Positions 930-25,507 of a stretch of DNA of 25,507 bases are shown one piece after another. Position 1 is the first letter of the stretch. Each line of letters starts with the position of its first letter. The translations under genes and the position numbers were made by a program. The stretch comes from Terramyces sp. JEL0728 (lineage: Eukaryota; Chytridiomycota; Chytridiomycetes; Rhizophydiales; Terramycetaceae), in the NCBI GenBank assembly GCA_027603945.1, contig JADIIU010000166.1, positions 1-25,507 on the forward strand, given 5' to 3'. The notes beneath the pieces were generated by a model, which searched no databases, was not told the DNA's origin, and worked only from the letters and a program-made list of their open reading frames with translations.

Positions 930-3900
930 ATGCACATAGATGAAATTATCTTGGAGGGATTCAAGTCATATGCAACCAGAACAGTAATTGGAAAATGGGA
1001 TCCGAGGTTCAATGCCATCACTGGGTTGAACGGAACAGGGAAATCAAATATCCTGGATTCGATTTGTTTTGTTTTGGGTATCACTTCATATCAACATGTA
1101 AGAGATCGCTAACACAAAGGTAAGAGCTACACGCATCGAAGACTTGGTATACAAAAAGGGACAAGCAGGTATTAATAAGGCATCAGTTACAATCATTTTC
1201 AACAACAGCAACAGAGAGAGATCGCCTCCTGGTTATGAATCTGAAAAAACTATTACAGTCACCCGTCAAGTATTATCAAGCTCATTGTAGTATATCATTG
1301 GAGGGAAAAACAAGTACTTGATCAATGGGAAAACTCAGACTCAACAGAGTGTAACTGAAATGTTCCAATCGGTACAATTGAATATCCAGAACCCCAACTT
1401 TTTGATCATGCAAGGAAAGATTACCCAGGTGCTTAATATGAAACCAGCCCAAATCCTCGGCATGATTGAAGAGGCAGCAGGAACAAGATTATACGAAGAC
1501 CGTAAAGACAAAGCCCTAAAAGCCATTGAGAAGAAAGAAAGTAAACTCGCACAGAGTTCATTGGTAATTGAAACTAATTGCAGTTGCTGGACACGGAAAT
1601 TGCTCCAAAATTGGATGAATATCAAATCAAAAAAAGAGAATTTTTGGAATTTCAAAAGGTTAGGTCTGAAAGAGAAAAGTTTGAAAAGGTCATTGTGGCC
1701 AGTGACTATCTTAAATATACAGTAAGTGGGATTAATGTAGAATATGTCGGAAAAGCTAGACGAGAAAAAGACGCAATCAGCTGAACGGATAGCACACCTT
1801 GAAACCACGGAAAATATGTTGAGTGAAGAAATTATTGAAGCGCAGGAGCGCGTTAACGAAGTTACCTCAGAAAGATCAAAGGTTTGCATTTGCTAACTCA
1901 GAACGGTGGTATTTTCTTTAAGCTTGAAGACAAATTCAAAGAAACTGGAAATGAAATGGCAAAGTATCGCACTCAAATGGGGCTGAAAGCAAATGCAATC
2001 AGGGATGAACAAGAAGAGCTGAAATCATTGAATAGCAGTTTGGATGAAGTATTTGTTACTAACGCAGTCTAAATCTAACCTGGAAGCAACTAAATTGAAT
2101 ACTTTAAAACTGGAAACAGAGTGTAATGAAAAATTAGCCGAGTATGAAAGTTTGAAAAAGTCAATCAAAGATGTGGAAAACTTGGTAACTACTCTTACAA
2201 CTGGATTAAGCTCGTCAGACGGCAAAGATAATGGGTATATGGACCAACTGGCAGGTAAACATCTCTTATGTAAGCCGCAAAACAAGAAAATAGCGCTGCT
2301 AGCTCTGAAATTCAGCAATACAAAGTTAAACTATCCCACTTGCAAAATGAAATTAAAGCAAAAGAACCAAAGGCAAGGGAAGCTAAAAAAGAAAACGCAG
2401 CGTTACTTGCAGAAATCCAGAAAACTAAAAATATTGTGGAAAACTTGGAAAATGAACTTGAATCGATTGACATTGATTTGGACAACGAAAGCGGATTATT
2501 AGCAAGAAAGAAAAAGTTGGCTTATGCTTACACAGAAGTCCAAAAGGTAAGAATAATGCTTATCATAGAAAATTGATGAGATGGAAAGGACAATGAATGG
2601 TGTGAAATTCAATTACGTGGACCCTACTCCAAATTTTGACCGTTCCAAAGTAAAGGGTCTGGTTGTGTCGTTAATAACTATCCCCGAAGAGCATCTGGAT
2701 AAATCAACTGCCCTTGAAGTGTCGGCTGGAGGGAAACTCTATCAAGTAGTGGTGGAAGATGAAAAAGTTGCCTCGCAGCTGCTACAAGGAGGTAAACTAC
2801 AAAAAAGGGTAACAATCATTCCATTATCCAAAATCCAGTCTTACACAGTATCTCCAGAAAAGATCCAAACTGCCAAGAAGCTAGCACCAGGAAAAGTTGA
2901 CCTGGCACTAAATTTACTTGGCCAGGATAGTGAAATTGCTGAGGCTTTAAACTATATCTTTGGTTCCACTTTAGTTTGTAATGGTAAGATTAGGTTAAGT
3001 TAGATTCAAACACTGCAAAAAGAGTTACTTTTGACAAGAATGTAAATTTAAGATCTGTTACGCTTGACGGTGATTCATATGATCCATCAGGCCAGCTAAC
3101 GGGTGGTTCAAAATCTCAATCAAGTGGAATACTATTGAAGATGCAGGATTTAAAAAAGTTGTACAATGAACAAAGAGTTATCAACAAACAATTAGCAGTC
3201 GCAACGGAAGAACTGGATGATTTCCTGACCAAAAAGCAGCTTTGGGAAAGCATGAACCAAAAAAAAGAGTTGAAGCAACATGAACTGAACCTGGCTCAAA
3301 CTCGTATGGAAAATAACCCACACTTTAAAATCATTCAACAAGTGGACGAGCTGATTGAACAACACAAAGCCACCAAGGATGGAATAGAGACTGCAAAACA
3401 AAAACAAGATCTTTCTCAACGTCGAACCAAAGAAATTGAAAAAGAAATGGAAGAATTAAGCAATAACCGAGATTCCAAACTCAAGTCTCTGCAAAACCAA
3501 GTCAAGTCAGATAAAAAGAAGCTTGCCCAAATGGAACCAGCAGTTGAAAAAATGAAGCAATCAATTAATATCTCGAAAGAAGAAACTGTCCAGTTTGAAG
3601 CTGAAATTGTAAAGATTAATGACTTAATTGATACTGCAAAAGAAAACATTGATAAAATCAGGGCAGATCAAAGAGAGCTTGAAGCAATCATCAAGAAATT
3701 GGATGTAAGATTTATTAATTTAAGGATCATATGATTGGAATGTCCACCGAGTTGCAGGAAGAAAGAAAAGCACTTGCCAAGTATGACAAAGAGTTGCAGA
3801 TCTTGGATAAAGCCCTACTATCAAAGAATCAACAGATCCAAGACAACAGGCTGGAATTGCAACAAATAAAGTCTCAATTGCAATCAATGGCTGAAGATAT

Positions 3901-4751
3901 GTCGAAATCCAAGAATTACATAAAGAAATTGGAAAAAGACTATCCTTGGATAAAAGACCAGAAACAATTATTTGGAGTCGATGGCACACAGTATAATTTC
4001 AAAGAATACAACATCTCTGAATTAGAAACAAAGATCAAACACCTGGCTGCCAGCGAAGATAAACTGAAAAGAAATGTGGATCCCACTGTAATTGATAAAT
4101 ACGACAAGTAACAGATTCTAACACTAGAGTGGAAAAGAATGCAACTTCATTGAAAAACAAACTCACCAGAGTCAAGAAAGACAAGAGCTCTATCCAATCC
4201 ACGCTTGAATACTTGGACCGCAAGAAGCACGACAAGCTTTTAAAAACTTGGGAAAAGGTTAACCAAGACTTTGGGGATATCTTTGGGGATTTACTTCCAG
4301 GGAACTCTTGCAAACTTGAACCACCAGAAGGAGACATCAGCGAAGGGTTAGAAGTGCGAGTATGCCTTGGAGGAGTATGGAAGTCATCACTAACTGAATT
4401 ATCTGGCGGCCAGCGTTCCCTTATTGCATTATCACTGATTCTGGCGCTTTTACAATTCAACCCAGCCCCAATGTACATATTGGATGAAGTTGATGCGGCA
4501 CTTGATTTGTCTCATACTCAAAACATTGGCAAACTGTTAAAAAGCAGATTCAGGACATCCCAATTCATTCTGGTTTCACTTAAAGATGGAATGTACAATA
4601 ATGCAAACGTATTGTTCCGAACAAAGTTTGTGGATGGGGTCAGTCAAGTTGAGGTAATTTTGATTAACGACAGCGTAAGGAGCACTCCAGACTAAAGCAA
4701 TCGCCAGTAAAGAATGTCGCTCTTGAACGGGCTAAAGCTCAGCTCTTTTAA
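930..4751 (+). CDS. SMC2: SMC2, condensin core ATPase subunit
   Basis: Structural maintenance of chromosomes protein 2, the ABC-type ATPase that pairs with SMC4 in condensin to compact mitotic chromosomes. Exons: 930-1097, 1120-1269, 1291-1563, 1584-1721, 1741-1881, 1902-2048, 2068-2254, 2275-2546, 2569-2983, 3004-3704, 3725-4107, 4128-4653, 4674-4751. They join to 1192 residues, close to the usual ~1200. Seen in order: the N-terminal [18 protein letters not shown] and Walker [10 protein letters not shown] (residues 32-40), long coiled coil, the hinge (exon 9, start of exon 10), second coil, signature [10 protein letters not shown] and Walker [13 protein letters not shown]. The twelve introns are 19-22 nt. 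Without splicing the gene looks frameshifted about a dozen times. Walker A has Thr where human SMC2 has Ser (GLNGSGKS), a conservative change. The start fits the family N-terminus exactly. The TAA stop overlaps AATAAA. Confidence 0.96.
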
Positions 4752-4755
4752 TAAA
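4750..4755 (+). terminator. AATAAA overlapping the SMC2 stop codon
   Basis: The hexamer begins at the second base of the TAA stop (4749-4751), so stop and probable polyadenylation signal share two bases. The 3' UTR would then be only a few tens of bases. Confidence 0.6.
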
Positions 4756-4813
4756 GTCTTTTTGATATTTAAGGGAACCTAGAAATAGGAACAAGCTTAA
4801 TTTCTGGCTGTTC

Positions 4814-4872
4814 GAATGTTCCACTGGATTACCAAGGGCAGACTGGTGATTCATCGCTATCTCAGAAAGTTC
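4814..4872 (+). promoter_or_regulatory. Two heat-shock-element-like inverted pentamers
   Basis: GAATGTTC at 4814-4821 and GAAAGTTC at 4865-4872 both match the GAAnnTTC core recognised by heat shock factor. They lie about 140 and 90 bp upstream of the mitochondrial Hsp70 start, in a 210-bp intergenic stretch that also has two poly-T tracts. Each is a two-unit site, not a full three-unit HSE. The position before an Hsp70 gene makes function plausible. Confidence 0.45.
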
Positions 4873-4961
4873 TAGTGATTTTCCGTCAAGCATGGAAATT
4901 GATTGGCGCATTTTTTTTCAGCTGCATCTGACTGACTGAATTTTTTTTTGTAATCAGAAAC

Positions 4962-6958
4962 ATGTTGCGTTTGACAAGAAATACTCTAAAGGTAAATTTG
5001 ATGCATTAACCTTTAGACTCAATTATTTAAGAGATTTAATAGCGATAAAGTTCAAGGCCAAGTCATTGGTATCGATCTTGGAACCACAAACTCTTGTGTT
5101 GCAGGTAATTAGATTTTCATCGTTAGTCATGGACGGCAAATCCCCAAGAGTCATTGAAAACTCTGAAGGTCAACGCACAACCCCTTCTATTGTTGCATTC
5201 GGCAAAGATGGCGAGTTGATTGTCGGTACACCTGCAAAGAGACAGGCTGTTGTCAACCCAGAACACACATTATTTGCAACCAAGCGTTTGATTGGTCGTC
5301 AATTCTCAGACCCTGCAGTCCAAGCTGATTTAAAGACTGTATCATACAAAATCGTCAAGCACAATAATGGAGATGCTTGGGTTGAAGCTAGAGGAAAGAA
5401 ATATTCGCCATCTCAAGTCGGTGGATTTGTTTTACAAAAGATGAAGGAAACTGCTGAAGGTTTCCTCGGAAAGTCTGTCAAAAACGCTGTAGTTACTGTT
5501 CCAGCTTATTTCAACGATGCACAAAGACAAGCTACCAAGGATGCTGGTCAAATTGCTGGTTTGAACGTCCTTAGAGTAATTAACGAACCTACTGCTGCTG
5601 CTTTAGCCTATGGTGCTGACAAGAACAACGACAACATTGTTGCTGTCTACGATTTGGGCGGTGGTACCTTTGATGTTTCCATTTTGGAAATCCAAAAGGG
5701 TGTATTCGAAGTCAAATCTACTAACGGAGACACACATCTTGGTGGGGAAGATTTCGACAACTTGCTCGTTAACCACTTTGTTGCTGAATTCAAAAAAGAT
5801 TCTGGCATTGACCTTGCAAACGACAGAATGGCCCTTCAACGTATCCGTGAAGCTGCTGAAAAGGCAAAGTGCGAATTATCTTCCACACTCACCACTGAAA
5901 TCAACTTGCCTTTCATCACTGCTGATGCCTCTGGACCAAAACACATCTTGACCACTCTATCCAGAGCTCAATTCGAATCATTAACTGCTAAATTATTGGA
6001 ACGCACGATTGAACCTTGCAAAAAAGCGATCAAGGATGCTGGAGTTTCCACCTCTGAAATCAATGAAGTCATTCTTGTTGGTGGTATGTCCAGAACTCCA
6101 AAAGTTCAAGAAATTGTTAAACAAGTGTTCAAACGTGAAGCTACCAAATCAGTCAACCCTGACGAAGCTGTTGCTATCGGTGCTGCTATCCAAGGTGGTG
6201 TGTTGTCTGGTGAAGTTACTTCCATCCTTTTGCTTGATGTTACTCCACTTTCCCTTGGTATTGAAACCTTGGGCGGTGTCTTTACTAGATTAATCAACCG
6301 TAACACTACTATCCCAACCAAGAAGAGCCAAGTATTCTCAACTGCTGCTGACGGACAAACCCAGGTAGAAATCAAGGTGTTCCAAGGTGAAAGAGAATTG
6401 GTAAGAGACAACAAGATGCTTGGACAATTCAACTTGACTGGCCTTGCACCAGCTCCTCGTGGTGCCCCACAAATCGAAGTAACTTTCGATATCGACGCTG
6501 ATGGTATCGTCAACGTCTCTGCCAAGGACAAGAACACCGGCGTTGACCAATCTATCACCATTGCGGCTTCTTCTGGATTGTCTGATACTGAAATCGACTC
6601 CATGATCAAGAATGCAGAACAGTTTGCTGAATCCGACAAGAAGAGAAAGGAAGTTATCGAAGCATTCAATGCAGCTGAATCAGTTATCCACTCTACTGAA
6701 AAAGCAATGACCGATTTCAAAGACAAGATTGACAGCACCGAAGCAGAAAAAATCAAGGAACAAATCAAAGATTTGCGTGATTTGATGGCTAAAGGCCCTG
6801 ACTCTGCCACCCCAGAAGAAATCAAAGAAAAACAAGATGCTGTGCAACAAGCGTCCCTAAACCTTTTCCAAAAAGTTTATCAAAACAAAGAAGCATCGTC
6901 TGAACCATCCAAAGATGAGCCAGTAGATGCAGATTTTAAGGACACTAAAAAGCCATAA
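4962..6958 (+). CDS. SSC1: Mitochondrial Hsp70 chaperone (Ssc1/mortalin type)
   Basis: ATP-driven Hsp70 of the mitochondrial matrix; it pulls precursors through the TIM23 channel and folds matrix proteins. Exons 4962-4991, 5017-5104 and 5127-6958 give 649 residues, the usual size (yeast Ssc1 is about 654). The first exon encodes [10 protein letters not shown], a basic presequence start, followed by the nucleotide-binding domain ([38 protein letters not shown]), the linker and substrate domain ([17 protein letters not shown]) and a charged C-terminus. DnaK/mitochondrial character shows in [17 protein letters not shown] and in the lack of a KDEL or EEVD tail. The two introns (25 and 22 nt) sit in the first 165 bp; the remaining 1.8 kb is one uninterrupted exon, unlike SMC2. 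The first intron is the longest confident one in the window. HSE-like sites lie upstream. Confidence 0.96.
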
Positions 6959-6973
6959 TCAGCTTTTATTATT

Positions 6974-6979
6974 AATAAA
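6974..6979 (+). terminator. AATAAA downstream of Hsp70
   Basis: Canonical hexamer 15 nt after the Hsp70 stop, inside the 54-bp gap to the convergent SPAG1 gene. Confidence 0.5.
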
Positions 6980-7008
6980 CATTATTTGAAATCATATCAA
7001 ACTCGCGT

Positions 7009-7014
7009 TTTATT
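7009..7014 (-). terminator. AATAAA overlapping the SPAG1 stop codon
   Basis: TTTATT on the plus strand reads AATAAA on the minus strand and begins inside the SPAG1 TAA (7013-7015). With the convergent Hsp70 gene ending at 6958, the two 3' ends are packed into about 50 bp. Confidence 0.55.
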
Positions 7015-8301
7015 AATCTTCATCGTCTGAATCATCCTCTTTGAGGTTTATTTTTCTTCTTGGCACTGGTTCATCATCCGAGTCTTCTTCTACATCTTGG
7101 AAAACGAATTGCCTCTTTTCGACCAGAATAGCTCCTTCAGTTTTGATTTCCGTAATTTCTCCATTCAGAGCTTCACTTTTCTTTGGCTCGATAGTGTCTA
7201 TTTCTTCTTCAACTTCGACAATCGTTAATCTAGTAGAGCTTTGCGGTTTTTGGCTGATAGTGCCATCCACTGAAGACCACTTTTCATATATTTTGTGTTT
7301 TAGATCCACAGCTTCTTTATCATTTGGCTTAGATTCCAAACACTTTTCAATATCCATGACCGCATCTTGATACCTACCGATATTGTAGAATGCTAAGCTT
7401 CTTCTTAAGCAAGCTTTGAAATTAAAATCGATTTGCAGCGATTTTGTATAGTCATCTGCAGCATTTGAATACTTTTTTAGTTTCAAGTAGCACAGTGCGC
7501 GATTATTATACCCAGCACAAGTCTCATTTAGCTTTATGCTCGTTGTATAGTGGTTAAGCTGCAATTAGTAACAGGTACCGCTTGATCATATTCCATCGCT
7601 GCCAAGCATTCGTTCCCCTTTTCCTTTTCTCTTACCGCCATGTACTCTGATTCTTGTTTCGTAATACTGGCTGGAATGTCAGCTTGTGGAAGAGACAAAG
7701 GCCCAAACGATGTTGGGGCTGACTTTTCTGCTGATGTTTCTATTTTTTCTACTTCTTTATCCACATCAAATCTATCCCAAGCTCTGTAGTCGTTTGATTT
7801 GATGCGGCTAGTGTTCTTCTTTACAGCCGGCTTTGGTGTGTCGTATGAATTCGTAGAGACAAACGCACTTTCCACTGCAATATTCGCAATCACTTCCGTG
7901 TTCTTTCCTCCTGCAAGAGCTAATTCTGAATCTTTTGTAGACACCGAATCAATCCATTCCTATTATCAAAATATTATCACTGATAGGTCATTTTCCACTT
8001 CCTTTTGCATTTCATACTTTTCACGAGAATTCAAAGGAGTAATTTTAATAGAGGGGTCAAGCGATTCGATTCTCTTGGCCATAAACTCTTCCAGTTGCGG
8101 ATAGTATCCTTCTTTTTCACTCCTGCGGTTAATAGCGGGCTACTTCAAGTAATCCAGCAGCTCCCTTAGATATTTAACATCTGTACATTTTTCAACGTAA
8201 CCATAATCCAGATGATTGACATCTACTTCAGATTCTTTAACAGGTTCAAATCCTGGATCTACTAGTTTTGCTATTCCCTGTAAATCTTGCGGACCCAACA
8301 T
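7013..8301 (-). CDS. SPAG1: SPAG1-like TPR protein, axonemal dynein assembly factor
   Basis: Homologue of SPAG1 (DNAAF13), a cytosolic HSP90/R2TP-linked co-chaperone needed to preassemble axonemal dynein arms. Exons (minus): 8301-8144, 8122-7981, 7959-7579, 7558-7013; 408 residues; introns 21, 21 and 20 nt. The N-terminus carries the SPAG1 signature HLDYGYVEKCTDVKYLRELL followed by SEKEGYYPQLEEF. Then come IKSNDYRAWDRFDVDKE and a three-repeat TPR block (starting near EKEKGNECLAAMEYDQA), and an acidic tail ending EDDSDDED. Human SPAG1 is about 926 residues with several TPR clusters and an RPAP3-type C-terminal domain. This protein keeps the N-terminal domain and one TPR cluster and lacks the rest. 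RPAP3/TTC-type proteins share the TPR part, but the N-terminal domain argues for SPAG1. Its presence implies a motile cilium. ATG at 8301-8299 is the only start before the conserved domain. Confidence 0.9.
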
Positions 8302-8338
8302 TTGTTATTGACGCGAAAAGAATAACAGGAAAAATATA

Positions 8339-8635
8339 TTATAAATTTTGAGGCTCGGCTTCTTTGAATGACTTGAATCTGTTCCATCTCTTTGGCTGGG
8401 TGCCAGAGTGGTCATAGAATTTGTGGGTTTCGTCCCGTTGAACATTCAAATTTGGATGTAGGTTGTGCTTTCTGTCCAAGGCGATTTCTGGGCCCATTAA
8501 ACAATGGTATGCGAAATAACTTCCACCACTAACAGCACCAATCATAACCAGCCCTAATGGGTAGATGCCAGCTGGGATTTTTCTGAGCTGGAAGAAGGTA
8601 GAAATTTCTTTGATTCTTAATGAGAGAGCAGACAT
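8339..8635 (-). CDS. MLRQ/B12D/NDUFA4-like mitochondrial membrane subunit
   Basis: A 98-residue intronless protein. A basic N-terminus (SLRIKEISTFFQLRKIPAG) is followed by one membrane segment around residues 24-44 (YPLGLVMIGAVSGGSYFAYH), then PEIALDRKHN and HKFYDHSG. This layout matches the MLRQ/B12D family that includes NDUFA4/COXFA4, a small inner-membrane subunit now assigned to cytochrome c oxidase; assignment to a particular complex is inference. The frame stays open 17 codons further upstream, to an ATG at 8686-8684. I chose the ATG at 8635-8633 because it gives the normal family length. Its stop lies 37 bp upstream of the SPAG1 start on the same strand. The 277-bp gap to OFD1 is a divergent promoter. 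Confidence 0.8.
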   Translation of the reverse strand: MSALSLRIKEISTFFQLRKIPAGIYPLGLVMIGAVSGGSYFAYHCLMGPEIALDRKHNLHPNLNVQRDETHKFYDHSGTQPKRWNRFKSFKEAEPQNL

Positions 8636-8912
8636 TGATTGTATGAGATATTCCAGAGAAATCCAATGTCCTTTTATAGCACACATTTCTCAATTCCACC
8701 AAAAATTAATCACACGCTTTTCATTCTGATTCACAATGACAGACCAGATTTCAGCAAATGTGAAATGTCTGAAACGGTGCTTGTAAATCGGATTCGATAA
8801 TATCCATAATAGCAATTTATTCGACTAATTTCTCATGCCCGATTTCCACCCTGGAGAATGAGTTTAATAAGCTGTGATATTAATGTAAAGTTTTAATTTT
8901 GGCAGTTGGAAA
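8636..8912. promoter_or_regulatory. Divergent promoter between MLRQ-like gene and OFD1
   Basis: One of the longest gene-free gaps in the window (277 bp), between divergent starts. I see no convincing TATA box or RFX X-box. A 21-nt segment at 8885-8905 has the GTAAAG...CAG form of the local introns and ends 7 bp before the OFD1 ATG, so it may be a 5' UTR intron. Confidence 0.4.
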
Positions 8913-11739
8913 ATGGCAGACTTGCAATCACGCAACTTGGAAGCGTTTTCTCAGCAAGAACTCAGAGATCGATTATTAGATCAGTTCAATAAAGCAGGAT
9001 TAAGGGAAAAACTTAAAGTTTAATTCTGTCTAATATTAGTCTCAGCTGCGATCAAAGTTGTTTGCTGAGCTTTCGTTCAGGACAAAAGTAACAAATAATC
9101 AACCCTCGCCAACATCCGTATTACTTGTTAAAGTGGTCGATTCGCTGTTTACAGAATATTTATCAGAGCGAGGATTGGAATTTACTCTGTCTGTTTTTCT
9201 ACCAGAAACCGGACAGAACTTGAATACCACCTTAAAACAAGATGATATTGTCAGAGCGCTCCATTTAGATCCCGTCAAGAATATGATTAATCTTGCAGAC
9301 TCGAAAGAATCTTTGATTATGAGGCTCGTCCGGAGTGTTTCTAAAGTAACGGACAATCCAACACGGGACAAGGAAGTGCAGACCAATGTAGAAATCGATG
9401 ATATCCTCAGTACGTATATTTAATTGCAGATATAAAATTGCGCGATATAGACCACTCTTTGCGACACAGAAAAGGGCAATACGAGAGAATACAGGTTGCA
9501 CAGCTGGAAGAAAGGATATATACTTGCCAAAGAGAATTAGAGGAACAAAGTGCAAAACAACTGGAGCAACAAATCGCAAACTTCAAGCAGGTAGAGCTAG
9601 TGAAAATGAAACTGGAAGAAAAGAAAGCATTGCAAATTGCGCTGGATCGATTGAAGTCGGAGAATGAACAAAAGATGTTGGAGCTGGAAACCAAATGTAT
9701 GAATGATCTTCAATTGGAGCGCACTAGAATGGCGGAACGAGAACGGGAAATGGACAAACAGAATATGGTTTTACGACAAAAAATTCTAGATGAAAGCAAT
9801 ATAAAGATTTTGAAGGAATCTCAATTGAGAAATGAAGTTGAACTATCCGCCAAGCAAGTGGTGTTGGAAAGAGATCAGCTCAAGCATAGAATGGAGGATA
9901 TTCAACAACAGATGAAACAACTGGCTGAATACAAGGAAAAGTATACAAAGCAAATGGAAGAAACAATGACTGAATATAAAGTGAATTTGACCAAAGAGTA
10001 CTCCACGTTGCTCTCGACAGTTGAAGTAGAGCGGGCTAAATTGAAAGGTGACCAGAACTAATTCAGGTGAACAGTTGATGGTAGATCAAAAAGAAGCCAC
10101 GGTAGATAAAATGCTATCCAAGATCCATAAAACTGAACAAGATCTCTCTGAAACAAAAATTGAACTTCAAGATGTTTTGGCCAGATTAGACGAAGCAAAA
10201 AAAGCCAAAGAAGACGCTCTATATCAAGTAAAGGATTTACAACTACAACTTTTGACTTCAAAAGGCTCGATTTCGCTAGAATTTGAAATTACCAGCCTGA
10301 AGAAACAGTTGTTGGAAGCTGAAAGGAAAGCTGATGTAAGGCAACAAGGTAGTTGAAAATTAAATAGAAAATGAATCTTTGGTGAAAGGGCTAATGACTC
10401 CAAAAACTGACCATGCTCAAGATTTGCGGTTGGCAAGGGATAACGAAGCTAAATGGAAGACGCAATGCAAGGACTTGGTCGAGAAATTGGATAATGAAAT
10501 GTCACAAAATGAGTTGCTGAATCAAAAACTAGAGCAAGAAATTCTCAAGAATAAGGAACTGTCAAGAGAGGTGGCGGATATGAAAGTATTGTTGCATCAA
10601 AGCCAGGCGGCATTCTCTATGGCCCAGCAACGTGCGACTTTTGCTCAAACAAAAATCCCTATTCATCCAAATAACTTGAGGTAGAAATCCATTAAATTAG
10701 CGGTTTTAGTGATCTACATGGCTTACTAGATACAAGATATAAAAATACAGCACGAGATGGCTACAAAGCTCAGTATGCCGAGCCAAAGCATCAACTACCG
10801 TTGCCTGAAACGTATTCCTACAACTTTGATTTTAAGCCATCATATCCAGAACCACCAACAAAAGATAGTTCAGCGCTGTTTGCTGATCCAATATTTAACA
10901 AATATGAACGGGAATTTGATCACTTTTTCAAAAAAGAAACTAGTGCAGATACCAAACCTTTGGATCCATCACTAGAAACAACTAGCAACTTTGGAGGTCA
11001 AGAGATTAAGTCTACTGCACCAACCAACAAGGCGAGCCACCAACAAACCCCAGGAGTTTCAAAAATAAGCAGAGACTTTTCAATACAAAATGACTATTTG
11101 AATGAAAAAGAGCACATCAGACCACTTATTCAAGAAGTCGAACCCGGACAAGAGGCCATCAAGGTTGGTAAAGATCAACTTCACAGCCAAGCTGGAGCTG
11201 TAGTAGTCGAAAAACAACAGGCGCTTGATGAGGACGGCCAACTAAAATTGGAAGTTGAAAGAAAGTTAGAAGAAAGAGCAGCTCAAGAAAGACAAATTGC
11301 CCAGGAAAGACAAAAGGAGCTGGAACGAATTAGGATTGCAGAGCAAGAACAAATCAAAACGATTGCTCTTGAAAAACAAAGGGCACAAGAATTGGAACGA
11401 GAACAAGAACAAATCAAAACGATTGCTCGTGAAAAGCAAAAAGCGTTAGAGTTGGAACGACAGCAAGTGGAAAAAGCACGCGAAATTGAGCTGGCTAAAC
11501 AAAAAGAAAAAGAAGAGGCAATGAAAGGTATCAAGCAATTGGAAAATGATCCACTGCTACAAAAGTACATGGCATTGGTAAAAGACAAGAAAGGAATAAC
11601 TGAAACAAAGCCAGAGTCAAAGTCTTCTACCCATTCAGATCTTGGTATTGCGGCCGGAGATACTGCCGATGAAGTTAGGTAAATTAACACTAATTGTAGT
11701 GCCCCAGGAATCTCTTCAAGCGACGATCCATCCTGGTAA
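8913..11739 (+). CDS. OFD1: OFD1-like centriole/basal body protein
   Basis: Homologue of OFD1, a centriolar satellite and distal-centriole protein needed for distal appendages and ciliogenesis. Exons: 8913-9017, 9040-9409, 9430-10047, 10067-10348, 10368-10680, 10701-11678, 11700-11739; 901 residues; introns 22, 20, 19, 19, 20 and 21 nt. The N-terminus (FSQQELRDRLLDQF, then KSQLRSKLFAEL) leads into a LisH-type motif (VDSLFTEYLSERGLEFTLSV) and FLPETGQ, all in the OFD1 order. Very long coiled coil follows from about residue 160, then a Pro/Ser-rich segment and a second charged coil. The last exon is only 40 nt and encodes an acidic end, SSSDDPSW. The late coil has a 60-bp tandem duplication. Human OFD1 is about 1010 residues. 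Identity rests on the N-terminal ~110 residues; coiled coil alone would not decide it. Confidence 0.88.
11341..11460 (+). repeat. 60-bp tandem duplication inside OFD1
   Basis: 11341-11400 and 11401-11460 are direct repeats differing at roughly a fifth or fewer of the positions. Each encodes a 20-residue charged coil unit starting EQEQIKTIA and ending ELE(R). The start of each unit (AAGAACAAATCAAAACGATT) is identical over 20 bases. Being a multiple of 3, the duplication keeps the frame but adds coil length. Confidence 0.85.
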
Positions 11740-11784
11740 TTTTTAATATATTCTAATTTAATTTTCAAGAGCGGATTGCATACA

Positions 11785-13368: not shown

Positions 13369-13395
13369 TTTGGTTTTCGAAAGTTTGCAGTAAAA
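13369..13395. promoter_or_regulatory. 27-bp bidirectional start region, epsinR / TRAPPC8
   Basis: The two divergent ATGs are separated by just 27 bp, so both 5' UTRs and core promoter elements must be minute or overlap the neighbour's coding sequence. Both genes act in Golgi/endosome traffic, so shared control is possible but not shown. Confidence 0.55.
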
Positions 13396-16300: not shown

Positions 16301-17690
16301 GGAAAACTGGAAGCGCTGTGCACCACTTTGATACCTATATGGATCCGTGCAGATCAAATTGGCAAGCACAGTTTTAGATTTCTGTTTGTATATCAGGCAA
16401 CTGTAAGTTTAGCTAACAGTAGGATGATCACGAGAGTGGGAACCATCGGTATTTAAAGATTTCCCAAAGTGTGGACGTTCAGTCTTCTCTGAGGGTGAAT
16501 ATTTTCACCAGACTATCTCCAATCAACATCAATGAATTCATCCTGGTCGTAGATATTACGAATATTCAATCACTGGAAGATCTGCTCGTTAATCAAATAA
16601 CCTCGCTCAGTCCTTCCTGGGCAATTTCCAGAATCACTCCGTAATTGTATTTAATATCAGAAATGACACAGTTAGTTCTAAATTATCGCCAAATGACAAC
16701 AAGCACATCTACCTGAAAGTAACAAGGATGAAGGTAGCATCTGTTGAGGACTTGGTAAATTCCCCAGAGTTTATCACAACTTTTGCTCTAGAACGAATGA
16801 TTTTGCTAGAGGATCCTAAGCCATTTTCACCCCCAGATATACCATTATTGGCTACAAGTGTCGCAGATGATCGACCTATCCTTGACATCAAATCTCACAT
16901 ATTCCAATATTTTGTAAGAGTGGCCAAAAACCATACCAGATTAAATTCCATCGTTCAGCATTATCCAGTTTTGACAAAAACACAAATCAAAGAATTGTTT
17001 ACCAAATATTGGCTGAGCGATCTGGATATGCTGGTTCTGTTTAGTAACAAGGACGCTTCAATTCAAGGGCATTTATCGATTAACGGATTCAATCTGAGTT
17101 TGGAGCAGCCGCTTCCAATTATTGGTTGGTTTAGCGGGCTGGATTCAAAGGCACTAGCTGGTAGAGCACTCTTTGAAAGGACTTTTAGGGAACGAAAGGA
17201 ACTGGTTAATAGCTTGTTAAAGTCTAAAGGAGGGGAAAATTCACCAATTCGGATACTTTTCCATGGAGATAGCTCGATAGATTTAAATTCAAGGTGATTT
17301 TATAGTAACCAAAGCAATGGCGTGGCGGAAATTAAAGTAACGCTTGGCAACACATCAATCATGCATAACGCGTTTTATGACTTTGAAGCGACTACCAGAA
17401 GGTATTTATTGTTTTATATTAGTATAAATTCATCTGAGGATTCAGTTCCTTTTGCCTGGGTTGGAAATACCAAATTTACAGGCAATCTAGAACCCTCCGA
17501 AATTGCAGAACTGAAATTGAAAGCAGTATTTGATCGTCCAGGAGTTTACGATGTCAGCCAATGGAAACTCAAAACCAAACTCTCATTCCCTAAACCAATC
17601 ATAGATGCTGGAGTCATGAGTAAACTCGAACGTGTCGGTGGAAGCTTCACACAGATCCCAACATTCAGTCACCTTATCAACGTTTTATAA
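13396..17690 (+). CDS. TRAPPC8: TRAPPC8 / Trs85 subunit of TRAPPIII
   Basis: Large TRAPPIII-specific subunit that targets the Rab1/Ypt1 exchange factor to pre-autophagosomal and Golgi membranes. Exons: 13396-13540, 13563-13763, 13785-13886, 13907-14069, 14089-14908, 14929-15060, 15081-15588, 15610-16164, 16185-16402, 16423-16640, 16661-17293, 17315-17401, 17423-17690; 1349 residues (human about 1435); twelve introns of 19-22 nt. Family landmarks: TPWYHQYR with FNHPVACLIVLSSADPEP (note the split Cys codon), RKLGDYAFMVRDIKYAQTTY, PRKYAFHIFLAAHRYSKCG, LGWSLISDHINFTVGK, and late beta-rich segments (PFAWVGNTKF, FDRPGVYDVSQWKL) like the Trs85 C-terminus. The fifth intron (14909-14928) and the last are easy to miss; the last is 21 nt with no stop in frame, so an unspliced mRNA would gain seven residues. 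The stop overlaps AATAAA. Confidence 0.94.
17402..17422 (+). other. Stop-free 21-nt intron of TRAPPC8 (may be retained)
   Basis: GT...AG segment of standard local length and base composition. It is a multiple of three and free of stops in the coding frame, so both spliced (TTRSINSSEDS) and retained (inserting seven residues after TTR) forms are readable. I prefer splicing because the resulting sequence aligns better in length with TRAPPC8. Confidence 0.6.
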
Positions 17691-17734: not shown

Positions 17735-20700
17735 TTACTTTGCCAGAAGCGAATGTATAGATTGGAATTGAGACCGGCTGTTAACTTTTACGATGGATTT
17801 TGATTTCCGCAGCTTTGAAGGAATTTCAACCAATCCCAGGGAAAATAGTTTTCTCGACAGTGGGTTTTGCAAAACTGAAGAGTGTCGGAACTTTTGAACT
17901 TCGTCGGATATCTTTTGAATATTTTCAAACATTTCCTCCAGTTTCTTCTTTTGGGATATCCATTGGAATTGGGGATTTAAACCTTGCGGTTTCCACTCGT
18001 TAGTTTTCCCAACAGTGCACGTTAAATCTACTACCGATGATCCTGCCCCAAACATGTAAGCTTCAGTTGTAAGTTTCCTAGCCAATCTGTTCAAATCTTG
18101 CATTTTCTGTATTTTTTCATCTTTTATTGGATTGCTACCCACTTCTAGCTGTGCTCGCTTTGTCAATGGATCAGACGGGTGGAATAAATCAAGCGCGATA
18201 GAAGAATATTCTAAACCTTTCAGCCGGGCATTCTCCATCATCAAAAATCTGATACAGGTTCGTTGGATTTCAATCTCTGTTAAAAACAGCTTACTTGATC
18301 GGCGTTTGTCGATTCAATGGAGTGTATGTTGATCGACCTATCGCTATTTGTAACATTCCGGATAGGAGAGCCGACTGCCATTCTATTTTCGAGTTTGCGA
18401 CAATGCTCGCGGAGTTTTTCATTTTCAGTTTCGCTGAATGTAAAGTCTTCGTGCAGGGCTTGCATTGCCTCCTTAAATAAGGCTTCACTCTTGGAGACCT
18501 TGTCAAACTGAATTTCAAGATTTTTATAATCAGATTTTAGCTCGATCAATTGGATATTACCTTTTCTAAAACGCCGACTTTGCTTTCCAGCAATTCAATG
18601 CTAACGGAATATTGCCCAATTAGATCTTCTTTTTTGACGATATCCTGCACTTGTTCTATTAATTTCAATTCCAGTTGCTCATTCTTGACCAGCAATTCCT
18701 GTCCATTGATATTTTCAGCTTTGAGTATCGCTGCACAATGGCTCCATGCAAATTCTATTTGGCTATAATCCTCAAACGCTTCACTGGTGCCAGTAGCATT
18801 CGAAAGGTTTCTTAAATCCAGTAAAAGGCTGTCCATTTGATCCAAAAGGGGTTCTAAAAGATCTCCAGAGGACATATCTTTCAAATTAGCTTCATCCGAG
18901 AACGTCTTTTCAATCTGCAATTAATGGAAATTACTTTTAGTAGAGTTTCAAGAATTTGTGACGATTTTGTTTGTAAATTCGAAAACTCTGTGATTTCCCC
19001 GATATACACCTTTGAACGTTGCCAAGCGCTCTCGATCGACGACATAATTCTATCAAACCAATTTTGTACATCATCCTTTAAAGGAACAGTCTTGCTAACG
19101 AGTTGCACTAAAGAACCCGTACTGTTTTCAGCAGTAACCTTTTCCTTAAGAGATGAAATGGCGAGCGATTGTAGGTTAAACGTAGCCTGAATTTGAAAGA
19201 GTTCAGAATGAATCGATTTTGATTTGAAGTATTGGGAGGCAAACAGCGCTTTGCAGTCAATGCCGCAATTGGCCGATATGCTATTCAATTGATTGTAGAT
19301 GCTAACATCAGAATAAATAATACCTCTTCAAATCATTTAGGGTTTTCAAGGCGAGCATTCCTTCTTGGACGCAAGTCCAGAGAATAGATTTCAAACTACA
19401 TTAAGTATGATCACCTGTCCGCTATTGAACTAACAGATGAAGAAACTTGACCAAACCGGACAATTAATTCATCGGATTTAGAATACTCTATGGCCCAAAT
19501 CATTTGATTTGCAAGCTCCTGAATATCATACAGCCCTTTCATAATAGCAGCCACGTCGTTATGCACATTTAACTTGAGGTATTTTTGAAGGATCAAGCAA
19601 TTACTTGCAACAATTTGCAAACTTACGAATGAAGTTACTGAATTTCCGTATTTCGAAAAGAATGGTTTGTCCAAAAACAGTCTGTACAAGATGGTTTCAT
19701 TGTTTGAACGATCGCATTCGAGATTCTTTATATCGAAATCGGCTTTGTATTTCTGCAATTCCGATTCCGCCAAGCCAAGCTTTCTTTTCGTTTCTGCGAG
19801 TTCAACAACATTGGAATTGTTAAGCACCGGAGCCTCAATACCATTGGCGGTGTCCGATCGCAACTGTTCGACCATATTGCCGGTTTCCAATAATTGCATT
19901 TTCTGTTTTTGATATCGAATTATGAGCTCCTTTATAATTTGTTCCTTAACATCTATTTTAATCCAGGTCTACCACACTCATCGTAAAGTTGACGTTCCAG
20001 ATCGACATGAGCCATTTCCAGCTCATTGTTTATAAACCGTAATTGTTCCAATTCCATCAAATCCAGCTTCTTATTTACCAATGCTTCATCTAACTTTAAA
20101 TTTTGATCGGTAAGTGTCTGAACGATTTCCGCAGCAGAGTCGTTATCATTCAATTGCGATTTCAGATAGTGAATTCGCTCCTGTGCAACTCCCAAATTCT
20201 TTTGCATTTGGACATAGGTTTCTATGTGAAATAATAACTACCGTTCATTTCCACGTACAATTTTGACTGCAATTTAGACGATTCCAGCTCTTCCTTCAGT
20301 TCGACTTCTTTCGCGGTAGTGATTTCACGAAGTTTAATCAATGCTAACGAAAGCCTCTCGTTCTGTAGTGACAGCTGATTTTGGTTTTTAATACCTCCAG
20401 TATCATTGCCATCTTCTGTTAGCACTGTGATATTCTCGTTGGCAAGGTCCAATTCAATCGTTAACTCTTCCACTCTGTCATTTAACAGAGTATTTTGCGT
20501 ATGTAACTCTTCCGAGCGTTCCTCGGCAAGACATTTATCCAGCAAACAAAGTTCTAACTCGTCATTCTTTTTGTCAAGTTCTAGACGATATTTTGCTAGT
20601 TCCATTTGGCTTGATTCTTCATTAACTGTTGCTTTTTCTAATCTGCCCTTGATATTTGCTATTTCTACTTTCATTCCTTCACATTTCGCTTGAAGCATGT

Positions 20701-22376
20701 TGTAGGCAATTTGAACCCCGTCTTTGCCAGATTGCTGTTGCAGCATTTCCTGCATCGACTGTATCTCGTGTGCTCTTTCCTTTTCGTGAATTGCTTCAAC
20801 TTCTAAACGTAATTTAAGATCCCGACTTTCTTGTATTACTTGCTTCTCCCGTAATTCGGCATCTGCCAATCGCAACTCTAAATCTTGCTGATAAATCTGT
20901 GATCTTTTTTCATTTTCAAGCAATGAATTGCATTTAATTTGCATTTCGTCCAATGTTTTCACAAGAGAATCATATTTTTGCTGTAGACTTTTGTCATCAA
21001 ATTGGGTTTCACTATCTAGTACATTTGAATCTGCATTAAGAGATTTTGCTTCAATCTCCCTGATTACTGGAGACTCTGAATTAACTTGGTCAGCGTTTGA
21101 TGTGACAGACCTTGCGCGTTCAATGATTAGACTATCATGTGAGGTATCGACAAAAGTTGTAAATTCCTGTGGAATATTTGCATTTGGTATAACAGGATGA
21201 TTTAAGGGAATTTCTGTAGATCCAGAATTCCTACGCATAGGAACATCACCAGATACTGACGAGACATCTCCTAAACTAATGCTTGACCTCTTCTTGATTG
21301 GACTGGGTAATTTTGAAGTGCTCTGGAACAAAGATGCTTTCTGCGATTGTTCATCAATACTAGGAACTTTGACGGATTCAATATTATGTAGCAAAAGACT
21401 TTTAGACGGCAGGACAGGACTTTTTGGATGGATATCGAAACTCGCTCTAACTTCATTTGGAACAATTAGTTTCATTGGGAGTTTCATTTTTGAAACTGCA
21501 GGACTCTCTTTCAAATATTCTACGGAATCTAAGTGACCATTTGAATTGGATTGCTTGGTTAAATATAATTACCATTTCTCCAGGAATTTCCGTTTGAAGA
21601 GTAATACCAGTCTTGCTTGTTGATTTCTTAAAGCTATTTTCTTTGGTGTGGTCTAACCTTTCTGTACTGCTTGAATTCTGGTTAGATAATCTTTCTGTTA
21701 ATTTAGATTCAGAGTCGGATTTGCGCAAGGGCAAGGCTCCTGTACTCAACCTTTTACTAGAGGGCTGTCTATTAAAATGTATTTACTTTTGGTATTGTAG
21801 TAGCTGGTGATAAAGGCTTAGACGCAGCACTTGGTGTCCTTGAACGTGTAAGATTTGGAGAACGTACAACTGGAGACTACATTAATTTAAATTACAGCGG
21901 CTGGTGAAGTCGCAGTTTTGCTTAATCTCCTGAGGTTACCTCCAGTTTCCGATAGCCTTGTAGACGACGTAGATTTAGCAGGTTTTGGAGCAATTGCAGA
22001 CGTTGGTAGCGATTTACTTGCAGGCGACTACGTTAAAAATGGATACATTCGCTGGTGAATTTGGTTTTGCACTTGTCGGTGGGGAGCGTACTGCTTTCTT
22101 TGGAGCAATTTGAATCTGCGATGGACGAACAAATATCCCATGTCCTGATTGGCATTCAAAGTATCGTGTATCCATAACACTGCCATCATTTTTCCCCGCA
22201 GGTTCGTCCAGCTCAATACCAATCCAATTTCCTGTGGCAAAATTGGTTGTTCCTTTAAATCTAACAGTCCCTGTTAATCCATTTGATAGAACAATTACAG
22301 TTTCTCCTTTTTCTACTTCCACTTCCCTACCCAGTGATAATCTTGAAGCAGGTCTCGAAGGTGGACGAGATGCCAT
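17735..22376 (-). CDS. DCTN1: Dynactin subunit 1, p150Glued
   Basis: Largest dynactin subunit; it links cytoplasmic dynein to microtubules and cargo. Exons (minus): 22376-22047, 22027-21896, 21876-21787, 21764-21573, 21553-20242, 20221-19973, 19952-19415, 19395-19324, 19301-18935, 18914-18561, 18540-18295, 18274-17735; 1473 residues; eleven introns of 19, 20 or 22 nt. The CAP-Gly domain (residues ~20-90) has GLTGTVRFKGTTNFATGNW, the GKNDGS groove motif at 61-66 and SGHGIFV. A basic Ser/Pro-rich region (~95-250) follows, then a long coiled coil (~435-790), a helical p150 dynactin domain (for example LDKPFFSKYGNSVTSF), a second coil near 1150-1250 and a C-terminal segment with LDLFHPSDPLTKRAQ. 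The first three exons are short Ser/Pro modules. The start lies only 39 bp from the stop of the upstream gene, so its promoter probably overlaps that gene's 3' end. Confidence 0.93.
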
Positions 22377-23599: not shown

Positions 23600-23605
23600 T
23601 TTATT
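23600..23605 (-). terminator. AATAAA containing the stop of methyltransferase 1
   Basis: The TAA stop (23603-23601) lies wholly inside the hexamer, read on the minus strand as CAATAAAAT. Confidence 0.55.
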
Positions 23606-24443
23606 GATTCTTGGCCAAGATCATGACAATTGGCCAGACAATTTCAAGGTTGGTATTCAAATCTTTCTGGCCCGTTTGGTCACATACCAGACTAATGAAT
23701 TTATCAACAGGATCTTTATCAGTAGGATGCTTTTCTTTCCAGGTCTTGTAAGCAGACCATGTCAATAAAAATCTACTGTCAAACCAAGTATACCCTTTCA
23801 GTTCTTCAATTGTCCAGTTTGACCGCATTAGCAATTCATTGGAATCCTTTGGATGGATCTTGTAATCAAAATCTTTGAATGGAGAATTCATGAAGTTGGG
23901 ATGTGTATATGCGTGTTCCAAGTATTCCTTGCCAGGTGCAAAGTAACCACCAAGAAATTTGTTTGAATAGTCAGCGTACGCCTTTGTTAATTGAGGGTAG
24001 TTTGGAAACTCCAAGTCTAGATATGCCCAGATCGCAAGTGTTCCTGTTGGTTTAAGAATCTTTTGGCACTCTTTGTAAAACAACGGCATGTTGAACCAAT
24101 GCGCTGCAGTGGAACACACAATCAAATCTACTGATTTCGGTTCGGTGATTTCCGATAGATTTTCGGCAGAAGCTACTTTATATGTAATATTCTCTTTTTT
24201 GAATGCTTCCTTGAGCATATTTTCACTGTAATCTGTAGCTACAACCTTTCTGAATGCAGCAGAGACATCAACTGCAGTTTGTCCAGTCCCGCATCCCACA
24301 TCTAGAGCAAGATCATACCCGGCATTTCCGTGCTTGTTGTGGAACTTGTACACAGTATCGTAGAGTTTTTTCGAGTAGGTCGGTCTGTAGCGCTTGTAAA
24401 GGTCAGAGTTGTATTCAGGCATTTTGCTGAAAAATCTTTTCAT
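23601..24443 (-). CDS. SAM-dependent methyltransferase, TMT1/CRG1-like (copy 1)
   Basis: Class I methyltransferase of the small-molecule type related to yeast Tmt1 (trans-aconitate methyltransferase) and Crg1. Exons 24443-23794 and 23772-23601 give 273 residues. Motif I is LALDVGCGTGQ (residues 46-55), with the acidic residue after the second strand in VVATDYSENML, and STAAHWFN and ILKPTGTLAIW further on. The family core TWSAYKTW follows the intron. The 21-nt intron (23773-23793) has no stop in frame, so the gene also reads as one 280-residue ORF. I call it an intron because copy 2 has a 20-nt intron at the identical place, and splicing gives KGFLLTWSAY, in register with the paralogue. The ATG at 24443 is used; one at 24422 (MPEYNSDLY) is equally possible. 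The stop is embedded in AATAAA. The true substrate is unknown. Confidence 0.85.
   Translation of the reverse strand: MKRFFSKMPEYNSDLYKRYRPTYSKKLYDTVYKFHNKHGNAGYDLALDVGCGTGQTAVDVSAAFRKVVATDYSENMLKEAFKKENITYKVASAENLSEITEPKSVDLIVCSTAAHWFNMPLFYKECQKILKPTGTLAIWAYLDLEFPNYPQLTKAYADYSNKFLGGYFAPGKEYLEHAYTHPNFMNSPFKDFDYKIHPKDSNELLMRSNWTIEELKGYTWFDSRFLLTWSAYKTWKEKHPTDKDPVDKFISLVCDQTGQKDLNTNLEIVWPIVMILAKNQ
23773..23793 (-). other. Stop-free 21-nt intron of methyltransferase copy 1
   Basis: GT...AG segment at the same codon position and phase as the 20-nt intron of copy 2 (24864-24883). The two share GTA at the start, TTGACA near the end and TAG. Retention would insert seven residues without a frameshift. 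Confidence 0.65.
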
Positions 24444-24688
24444 ATTAATGCAGAGTTGTTAGCCTCTATTTATATCTTGAGGATTCGGGGCAATATCAGG
24501 TGTACATGATTATAAAGAGAAAATATCCCCGCATTAATATGGGAGTCATCAAGTTGAGGAATCAGCTGAATAATGAACCCACCTCTCAGAAACGATTCAT
24601 ACCAGAATGAGAAGATTGCAGCCAAACTGAAAATATTAAGCAATGCCAGTCAAAAAAAGTATAATCAAACCAGATAAGAAACGATAGT
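24444..24688. promoter_or_regulatory. Intergenic region between the two methyltransferases
   Basis: 245 bp, presumably the promoter of copy 1. A TATA-like ATATAAATA on the minus strand (near 24462-24470) lies about 20-25 bp upstream of the 24443 ATG. Nothing else recognisable. Confidence 0.4.
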
Positions 24689-24693
24689 TTATT
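24688..24693 (-). terminator. AATAAA containing the stop of methyltransferase 2
   Basis: GAATAAAC on the minus strand; the TAA stop (24691-24689) is inside the hexamer. Confidence 0.55.
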
Positions 24694-25507
24694 CATTGTT
24701 TTTTGCAAGGATCATTGCAATTGGCCAGTAGATATCGACCGTGGAATTCATATCTGTTGTTCCTACTTGTTGGAATATCAATTCAATGAACTCGTCGATT
24801 GGATCTTTATCAGTAGGATGCTTTTCTTTCCACGTCTTGTAAGCAGACCATGTCGACAAATACCTATGTCAAGCAATAATTACCCTTTGACTTGTTCGAT
24901 AGTCCAGTTTACTTCCATAAGTTGAATATCAGTATCGTCTGGATAAATCGCGTGTTTGAAATCTTTAAATGGTGAGTTGATGAATTCAGGGTGAGTGTAG
25001 CCTTTTTCCAAGTATTCTCTGCCTGGTGCCCAGTAGTCATTCAAGAAAATATTGGTGTAATCATCATGGGCTTTAGTCAGTACAGGATATTTGGGAAATA
25101 CAAAGTTCTTGTAGCCCCAGATCGCAAGCGTTCCCGTTGGTTTAAGAATCTTTTGGCACTCCTTGTAAAACAACGGCATGTTGAACCAATGCGCTGCAGT
25201 GGAACACACAATCAAATCTACCGATTTCGGTTCAGTGATTTCCGATAGATTTTCGGCAGAAGCTACTTTATATGTAATATTCTCCTTTTTGAATGCTTCC
25301 TTGAGCATATTTTCACTGTAATCTGTAGCTACAACCTTTCTGAATGCAGCAGAGACATCAACTGCAGTTTGTCCAGTCCCGCATCCCACATCTAGAGCAA
25401 GATCATACCCGGCATTTCCGTGCTTGTTGTGGAACTTGTACACAATATCGTAGAGTTTTTTCGAGTAGGTCGGTCTGTAGCGCTTGTAAAGGTCAGAGTT
25501 GTATTCA
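24689..25507 (-). CDS. SAM-dependent methyltransferase, TMT1/CRG1-like (copy 2, 5' end cut off)
   Basis: Tandem paralogue of the preceding gene, running off the window edge at a codon equivalent to residue 10 of copy 1. Exons 25507-24884 and 24863-24689 with a 20-nt intron (24864-24883) that contains an in-frame stop, so splicing is required. The joined protein continues KGYLSTWSAYKTWK and ends with PIAMILAKNNE. The N-terminal ~130 residues are virtually identical to copy 1 (one substitution, Thr to Ile in YD(T/I)VYK), including the SAM-binding motif. The middle ~75 residues, which should shape the substrate pocket, differ widely (for example DYWAPGREYLEKGYTHPEF against GYFAPGKEYLEHAYTHPNF). 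The two enzymes may act on different substrates. Confidence 0.86.

Follow-up and report, generated by a model that had tools for sequence, protein, structure and literature searches.

The question raised by the 25,507-nucleotide (nt) window analysed here is what the 55 short segments are that begin with GT, end with AG and interrupt its protein-coding genes. The window is contig C166, positions 1–25507, from a 15.0-Mb assembly of 231 contigs. An earlier sequence-only reading had placed it in a flagellated opisthokont, and the spliced SMC2 protein bears this out: 95% of its length is 100% identical to a public protein from Terramyces sp. JEL0728, a chytrid in the Rhizophydiales (Chytridiomycota). 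The nearest other SMC2 relatives among the matches listed are from Boothiomyces (88% and 86%). On sequence grounds, the 55 segments are almost certainly U2-type spliceosomal introns of this chytrid fungus, shrunk to a narrow band of 19–22 nt; one 25-nt intron in the window lies outside that band.

A gene model combining codon usage, GT..AG ends and trained motif and length terms proposed 53 introns in the window. Of these, two were removed in curation and three more were recognised by eye, for a total of 54 across eight genes (19 nt, 10; 20 nt, 25; 21 nt, nine; 22 nt, nine; 25 nt, one). The 55th, a 21-nt segment at 23773–23793 in methyltransferase copy 1, was added on homology grounds. Initially suspected to be coding sequence, it was accepted as an intron because splicing lifts the match to yeast Tmt1 (3g5t) from 93.6 to 102.5 bits and that to 4hg2 from 64.8 to 74.8 bits. 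The curated set thus reproduces exactly the number and sizes given by the sequence-only reading (19 nt, 10; 20 nt, 25; 21 nt, 10; 22 nt, nine; 25 nt, one), which had assigned them to eight genes; counting methyltransferase copy 1, we find nine. The two rejected proposals were a GT..AG segment at 16449–16469 and a 17-nt cut at 25392–25408; the first was discarded because the public Terramyces protein contains its unspliced form (HRYLKISQSVDVQ), to which Boothiomyces and Globomyces have counterparts. A model with a flat length term of 12–400 nt was also abandoned; it fused neighbouring genes through long false introns. Once spliced, the SMC2, TRAPPC8, dynactin, OFD1-like, SPAG1-like and ENTH genes are free of stops, against 16–89 stops in the same frame unspliced, and those of Hsp70 and methyltransferase copy 2 are open frames. 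The names SPAG1 and OFD1 are weaker than first proposed, as only TPR and LisH domains were detected.

The size band was compared with chance in the window and in 20 further 10-kb stretches (18 of contig C1 and two of C2), together a sample of 225 kb that represents 1.5% of the genome and chiefly one contig. The test used only codon usage, learned from long open frames in the sampled loci, with a flat length of 10–60 nt and swapped end dinucleotides. Among the GT..AG cuts, 96 of 172 measured 19–22 nt, in contrast to 5–12 of 109–169 cuts for each of nine control pairs (AG..GT, GA..TG, CT..AC, TG..GA, CA..TC, GC..AG, AT..AC, GT..GA and TG..AG), so that the peak is confined to GT..AG. When lengths up to 200 nt were allowed, the GT..AG cuts numbered 11 (10–18 nt), 78 (19–22), 4 (23–30), 23 (31–60), 24 (61–100) and 50 (101–200). 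Five control pairs exceeded GT..AG in every class above 22 nt (52–67 cuts at 101–200 nt), and no longer intron class was seen in the 225-kb sample, where GT..AG showed no excess over these pairs at 23–200 nt. The motif model recovered 43 of the 54 curated introns in the window, with three extra calls, and predicted 177 introns of 18–23 nt in the sample. Extrapolated roughly to 15 Mb, this gives about 12,000 introns, rising to about 15,000 once the 43/54 recall is corrected for.

Every intron in the set starts with GT and ends with AG, the first three bases are usually GTA, and a little more than half carry YTAAY. In the 96 cuts of 19–22 nt obtained without motif training, YTAAY occurred in 52 (1000 shuffles: mean 12, maximum 24), with its A 14–16 nt away from the 5' splice site in 50 of these 52 and at -6, -7 or -8 from the intron end in 49. 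Cuts of at least 26 nt had YTAAY within their last 20 nt in 10 of 56 cases. The 5' ends of the 96 cuts showed A at +3 (78), A at +4 (52), T (44) or G (24) at +5 and T at +6 (54). The claim that most introns carry CTAAC, TTAAC, CTAAT or TTAAT is barely fair in its wording; the curated window set has one of these in 31 of 54, well above 500 interior shuffles (mean 7, maximum 15), and the 55th intron carries TTGAC. A retrained, partly circular sample gave YTAAY in 80 of 134. The AT content of the introns is 70.6%. The spliceosomal nature proposed from the sequence is upheld by the size peak unique to GT..AG and by a branch motif that matches U2.

The junctions were then set against homologous proteins. 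For SMC2, aligned to 12 homologues chosen among 120 listed, 10 of the 12 junctions are gap-free in 10–12 homologues; the other two score zero, with a 7-residue insert in Boothiomyces macroporosus alone and none in the other 11. TRAPPC8 was aligned to 11 of 60 matches, including the Terramyces record itself (P0121), and 8 of its 12 junctions are gap-free in 6–11 of them. The ENTH protein aligns to human epsin 4 gap-free over 162 residues, spanning five introns, and Hsp70 aligns to mortalin gap-free over residues 23–181, spanning one. Both spliced methyltransferase copies read gap-free through their junctions, copy 2 in comparison with 4hg2. The dynactin junctions were compared with the Boothiomyces proteins P0182 and P0183 only. 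Nine of the 11 have no gap within 3 residues in P0182 (exceptions, 19953 and 18275); in P0183, six have a gap no more than 3 residues away. The conservation claimed for the junctions was thus put to the test in SMC2, TRAPPC8, five of seven ENTH introns, one of two in Hsp70, the methyltransferases and, with Boothiomyces as the sole comparison, dynactin; most of these junctions agree with the homologues, and four in TRAPPC8 fail a strict test.

Relatives also appear to share some of these introns. When five Boothiomyces proteins (P0002, P0003, P0122, P0182 and P0183) were compared with the Terramyces models, P0003 and P0122 each proved to carry two insertions exactly 7 residues long; all four lie no more than one residue from a Terramyces junction (2255, 2984, 13541 and 17294). 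The remaining insertions range from 1 to 42 residues, and none is of 7. By back-translation, we read each 7-residue insert as a probable 21-nt GT..AG intron that the public Boothiomyces model would have retained because it contains no stop and its length is divisible by three. The public Terramyces proteins match 11 of 12 SMC2, 4 of 12 TRAPPC8 and 4 of 11 dynactin junctions (19 of 35 overall), and miss exons or ends at the others. The public TRAPPC8 protein, for example, lacks 44 residues, as though 14909–15080 were a single 172-nt intron, and both ends of this stretch are kept in eight other chytrid proteins. Boothiomyces P0122 drops most of the same exon, and this stretch is also missing from Globomyces P0123; the latter gap hints at tiny introns in Globomyces too.

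Several results weigh against this reading. With unconstrained cut ends, the window yielded 21 cuts and no peak at 19–22 nt, and the peak therefore depends on the GT..AG condition; nine of these cuts had both ends no more than 6 nt from those of a curated intron, and one had the matching length, so codon usage alone is too weak to place intron ends. Twelve of the 55 introns (OFD1-like, six; SPAG1-like, three; Hsp70, one; ENTH, two) are called from frame, codon usage and motif alone. The TRAPPC8 junctions 13541, 16641, 17294 and 17402 fail the strict gap test (0/11), lying in variable stretches or beside 7-residue inserts, and the homologue sequences are themselves predicted proteins. Boothiomyces proteins lack stretches at two SMC2 sites in P0003, two sites in P0002, four TRAPPC8 places in P0122 and four dynactin sites in P0183, which are probably annotation errors such as mis-spliced models would produce. 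Finally, a search of the genome for U1 small nuclear RNA (snRNA) found nothing at E≤1, by a method too weak to show absence, and U1-70K (PF12220) had no match here or in the control genomes. For U6 snRNA, the Rfam search gave only two coding false positives (L026 and L027, rejected as two copies of a protein gene), and three patterns gave 18 matches (control, 13), 2 (control, 2) and 3 (control, 0), none of them U6-like, the last three being judged on the matched strings alone. An interrupted or unassembled U6 gene is possible; U2 and U5 were found.

Several components of the spliceosome were detected. U2 snRNA scored 140 bits with a canonical GUAGUA, and U5 snRNA scored 86 bits. An SF1-HH match above the cut-off came in two overlapping pieces, a split consistent with a short intron. 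A U2AF65-like match (U2AF_lg) reached 251.7 bits, under the 310.3-bit cut-off, and crosses four in-frame stops. Of the U1, U2AF and SF1 genes that the sequence-only reading had proposed to check for reduction, SF1 and a U2AF65-like gene are thus present and U1 was not found, by weak means.

In the mechanism that we propose, the GUAGUA of U2 would pair with the branch motif and bulge its A, while U6 would pair with the first six intron bases. The 5' element would occupy positions +1 to +6 and be separated by about 4 nt from the branch motif at about 11–17. Branching would give a lariat loop of about 14–16 nt and a tail of 5–7 nt, with the nearest AG used as the acceptor and almost no space left for a polypyrimidine tract. 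Judging by what is generally known of the spliceosome, the U6 and U2 pairings could fit side by side, but simultaneous U1 and U2 small nuclear ribonucleoproteins (snRNPs) hardly could, and recognition of the 5' site is therefore likely to be brief or sequential (U1, then U6).

A more ambitious proposal, which we regard as unlikely, is that a free-living, intron-dense fungus independently reduced all of its introns to about 20 nt and altered an early step of their splicing, in which U1 and U2 could not occupy the intron together, G at +5 would be largely abandoned, U1 would be lost, altered or transient, and U6 with the branch complex would define the introns. Less probable still is that the same introns depend on remodelled 5' recognition, the U1 snRNP being lost or altered and U6 together with SF1, U2AF and U2 on the branch defining the intron. 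The missing U1 RNA and PF12220 matches would fit such remodelling, as would the predominance of T over G at +5 in the motif-untrained introns and the few nucleotides between the 5' element and the branch motif. However, U6 must exist for splicing and was missed by the same methods, so the U1 and U6 misses say little, and PF12220 matched no control genome. ACUUACCU is the mark of a normal U1 snRNA. In the available portion of the Stentor source, the commonest intron, GUAAUUUUUAUAUAG, likewise has no G at +5, but Stentor, with shorter introns, retains a normal U1 (PMC9505925).

Retention of the segments, whether bypassed or translated as inserts, is very improbable. Two of the ten 21-nt introns (17402–17422 and 23773–23793) are stop-free, but the other eight bring stops if retained, length alone breaks the frame in 45 of the 55 introns, and inserts are absent at the tested junctions in most aligned homologues. 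We give hardly any weight to removal after transcription by a non-spliceosomal route, such as an endonuclease and ligase; the sizes do fall under the usual fungal spliceosomal minimum, but the segments are bounded by GT and AG and contain a branch motif that fits a canonical U2, and such a route would need no branch motif. An assembly or sequencing artefact, or a ciliate-like elimination at the DNA level, is equally remote, since the sizes and the motif recur across 225 kb, two Boothiomyces proteins point to introns at four shared sites, and the segments are bounded by GT..AG in a chytrid, whereas ciliate eliminated DNA is TA-bounded. U2-type spliceosomal introns thus remain our preferred reading of the segments, whose coordinates are collected in Table 1.

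Table 1. Genes of the window and their introns. Fractions give the homologues that align without a gap at the junction; P0122, P0182 and P0183 are Boothiomyces proteins.
Feature	Position	Strand	Evidence
SMC2 (condensin) gene	930..4751	+	12 introns; SMC_N, SMC_hinge, homologues
SMC2 intron, 22 nt	1098..1119	+	gap-free 10/12
SMC2 intron, 21 nt	1270..1290	+	gap-free 11/12; stop if retained
SMC2 intron, 20 nt	1564..1583	+	gap-free 12/12
SMC2 intron, 19 nt	1722..1740	+	gap-free 11/12
SMC2 intron, 20 nt	1882..1901	+	gap-free 11/12
SMC2 intron, 19 nt	2049..2067	+	gap-free 12/12
SMC2 intron, 20 nt	2255..2274	+	7-residue insert only in B. macroporosus among 12
SMC2 intron, 22 nt	2547..2568	+	gap-free 12/12
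SMC2 intron, 20 nt	2984..3003	+	7-residue insert only in B. macroporosus among 12
SMC2 intron, 20 nt	3705..3724	+	gap-free 11/12
SMC2 intron, 20 nt	4108..4127	+	gap-free 11/12
SMC2 intron, 20 nt	4654..4673	+	gap-free 11/12
Mitochondrial Hsp70 gene	4962..6958	+	2 introns; gap-free to human mortalin, residues 23-181
Hsp70 intron, 25 nt, longest in window	4992..5016	+	by eye, frame checked; beyond mortalin match
Hsp70 intron, 22 nt	5105..5126	+	by eye, frame checked; within gap-free mortalin match
SPAG1-like TPR protein gene	7013..8301	-	3 introns; TPR domains
SPAG1-like intron, 21 nt	8123..8143	-	stop if retained; frame, codon usage, motif
SPAG1-like intron, 21 nt	7960..7980	-	stops if retained; frame, codon usage, motif
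SPAG1-like intron, 20 nt	7559..7578	-	frame, codon usage, motif
OFD1-like LisH coiled-coil gene	8913..11739	+	6 introns; LisH_2
OFD1-like intron, 22 nt	9018..9039	+	by eye, frame checked
OFD1-like intron, 20 nt	9410..9429	+	frame, codon usage, motif
OFD1-like intron, 19 nt	10048..10066	+	frame, codon usage, motif
OFD1-like intron, 19 nt	10349..10367	+	frame, codon usage, motif
OFD1-like intron, 20 nt	10681..10700	+	frame, codon usage, motif
OFD1-like intron, 21 nt	11679..11699	+	stop if retained; frame, codon usage, motif
ENTH/epsin-like gene	11785..13368	-	7 introns; ENTH 142 bits; gap-free to human epsin 4, 162 residues
ENTH intron, 20 nt	13218..13237	-	within gap-free epsin 4 match
ENTH intron, 22 nt	13161..13182	-	within gap-free epsin 4 match; adjoins 13-nt exon
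ENTH intron, 22 nt	13126..13147	-	within gap-free epsin 4 match
ENTH intron, 19 nt	12886..12904	-	within gap-free epsin 4 match
ENTH intron, 20 nt	12788..12807	-	within gap-free epsin 4 match
ENTH intron, 20 nt	12627..12646	-	frame and motif only
ENTH intron, 21 nt	12540..12560	-	stop if retained; frame, codon usage, motif
TRAPPC8 gene	13396..17690	+	12 introns; TRAPPC-Trs85 288 bits, homologues
TRAPPC8 intron, 22 nt	13541..13562	+	7-residue insert in P0122; strict gap test 0/11
TRAPPC8 intron, 21 nt	13764..13784	+	gap-free 8/11; stop if retained
TRAPPC8 intron, 20 nt	13887..13906	+	gap-free 9/11
TRAPPC8 intron, 19 nt	14070..14088	+	gap-free 10/11
TRAPPC8 intron, 20 nt	14909..14928	+	gap-free 8/11; next exon missing from public protein
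TRAPPC8 intron, 20 nt	15061..15080	+	gap-free 8/11
TRAPPC8 intron, 21 nt	15589..15609	+	gap-free 11/11; stops if retained
TRAPPC8 intron, 20 nt	16165..16184	+	gap-free 10/11
TRAPPC8 intron, 20 nt	16403..16422	+	gap-free 6/11
TRAPPC8 intron, 20 nt	16641..16660	+	variable region, strict gap test 0/11; same junction in public protein
TRAPPC8 intron, 21 nt	17294..17314	+	7-residue insert in P0122; strict gap test 0/11; stop if retained
TRAPPC8 intron, 21 nt, stop-free if retained	17402..17422	+	no insert in P0122; variable region, strict gap test 0/11
Dynactin p150-like CAP-Gly gene	17735..22376	-	11 introns; CAP_GLY, homologues
Dynactin intron, 19 nt	22028..22046	-	P0182 gap-free; P0183 within 67-residue gap
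Dynactin intron, 19 nt	21877..21895	-	P0182 gap-free; P0183 within 67-residue gap
Dynactin intron, 22 nt	21765..21786	-	P0182 gap-free; P0183 gap at junction
Dynactin intron, 19 nt	21554..21572	-	P0182 gap-free; P0183 2-residue insert adjoining
Dynactin intron, 20 nt	20222..20241	-	P0182 gap-free; P0183 12-residue gap
Dynactin intron, 20 nt	19953..19972	-	P0182 1-residue insert adjoining; P0183 none
Dynactin intron, 19 nt	19396..19414	-	gap-free to P0182 and P0183
Dynactin intron, 22 nt	19302..19323	-	gap-free to P0182 and P0183
Dynactin intron, 20 nt	18915..18934	-	gap-free to P0182 and P0183
Dynactin intron, 20 nt	18541..18560	-	gap-free to P0182 and P0183; public Terramyces protein lacks 11 residues downstream
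Dynactin intron, 20 nt	18275..18294	-	4-residue insert 3 residues off in P0182 and P0183
Methyltransferase copy 1 (Tmt1-like) gene	23601..24422	-	1 intron; 3g5t, 4hg2 matches
Methyltransferase copy 1 intron, 21 nt, stop-free if retained	23773..23793	-	splicing raises 3g5t match from 93.6 to 102.5 bits
Methyltransferase copy 2 gene, truncated by contig end	24689..25507	-	1 intron
Methyltransferase copy 2 intron, 20 nt	24864..24883	-	same site as 23773-23793; gap-free to 4hg2; aligned to copy 1

The two Tmt1-like genes stand in tandem and are near-identical over their first ~400 bases and diverged over the remainder, the pattern expected of gene conversion; their same-site introns differ in length (21 and 20 nt). 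In the ENTH gene, a 13-nt exon (13148–13160, minus strand) lies between two 22-nt introns, and the gap-free epsin match requires it. A search for another copy of positions 930–13400 of the window returned Hsp70 matches only. Elsewhere in the genome, two stretches on contigs C199 (L026) and C111 (L027) are 99% identical. Up to the apparent gene stop, their alignment, viewed to near base 2160 of 3106, has a sole gap of 1 nt, and we read this gap as lying inside a presumed intron whose two versions measure 21 and 20 nt. These stretches are probably two haplotypes or a recent duplication, and carry a membrane protein gene reminiscent of VMP1.

Introns of comparable size are known from a few systems, described here from the available portions of the cited sources. 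Chlorarachniophyte nucleomorph introns have GT..AG ends. They measure 18–21 nt and number more than 800 in about 300 genes (PMC10245619). The Terramyces introns resemble them in their narrow size band and their abundance; the nucleomorph is a reduced relic nucleus, whereas Terramyces has a 15-Mb fungal nuclear genome, unrelated by descent. Stentor coeruleus introns of 15–16 nt have the branch A at position 10–11 (PMC9505925). They are likewise tiny and AT-rich (75.6% against 70.6%), with a near-fixed branch A, GUAAUU-like starts and a tail after the branch A of 5 nt, compared with mostly 5–6 nt in Terramyces. The Terramyces introns, those of a fungus rather than a ciliate, are 4–5 nt longer and have a clear YTAAY, whereas no strong branch consensus is described for Stentor in that portion. 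Mikrocytid introns of 16–17 nt (224 in M. mackini; PMC10245619) also combine a narrow band with a shared motif, but belong to a parasite with a reduced genome and spliceosome and few introns, unlike the dense introns and the SF1 and U2AF65-like genes of Terramyces. In Paramecium and Nyctotherus, also ciliates, the whole set is likewise ultra-short but longer, at about 25 nt (PMC5014332). Microsporidia, a fungal-related lineage, have relatively short introns that are few per genome (PMC10245619), whereas those of Terramyces are dense.

Within 225 kb of the 15.0 Mb, the Terramyces set shows the narrow band and the lack of a longer class that mark ultra-short intron sets. Among the matches listed from the open-access literature, we found no account of such introns in Chytridiomycota; most subscription papers lie outside that search, and the genome paper may mention sizes. 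Introns this small have previously come from a few protists and relic nuclei, and here they form a dense set in a fungus. In contrast to nucleomorphs and giant ciliates, fungi are a kingdom in which spliceosome structures have been solved and laboratory genetics is available. This makes testable both the minimum spacing between the 5' splice site and the branch point and the need for joint U1 and U2 binding. The proteins of such fungi may also need re-annotation, as the public set matches just 19 of the 35 junctions in SMC2, TRAPPC8 and dynactin.

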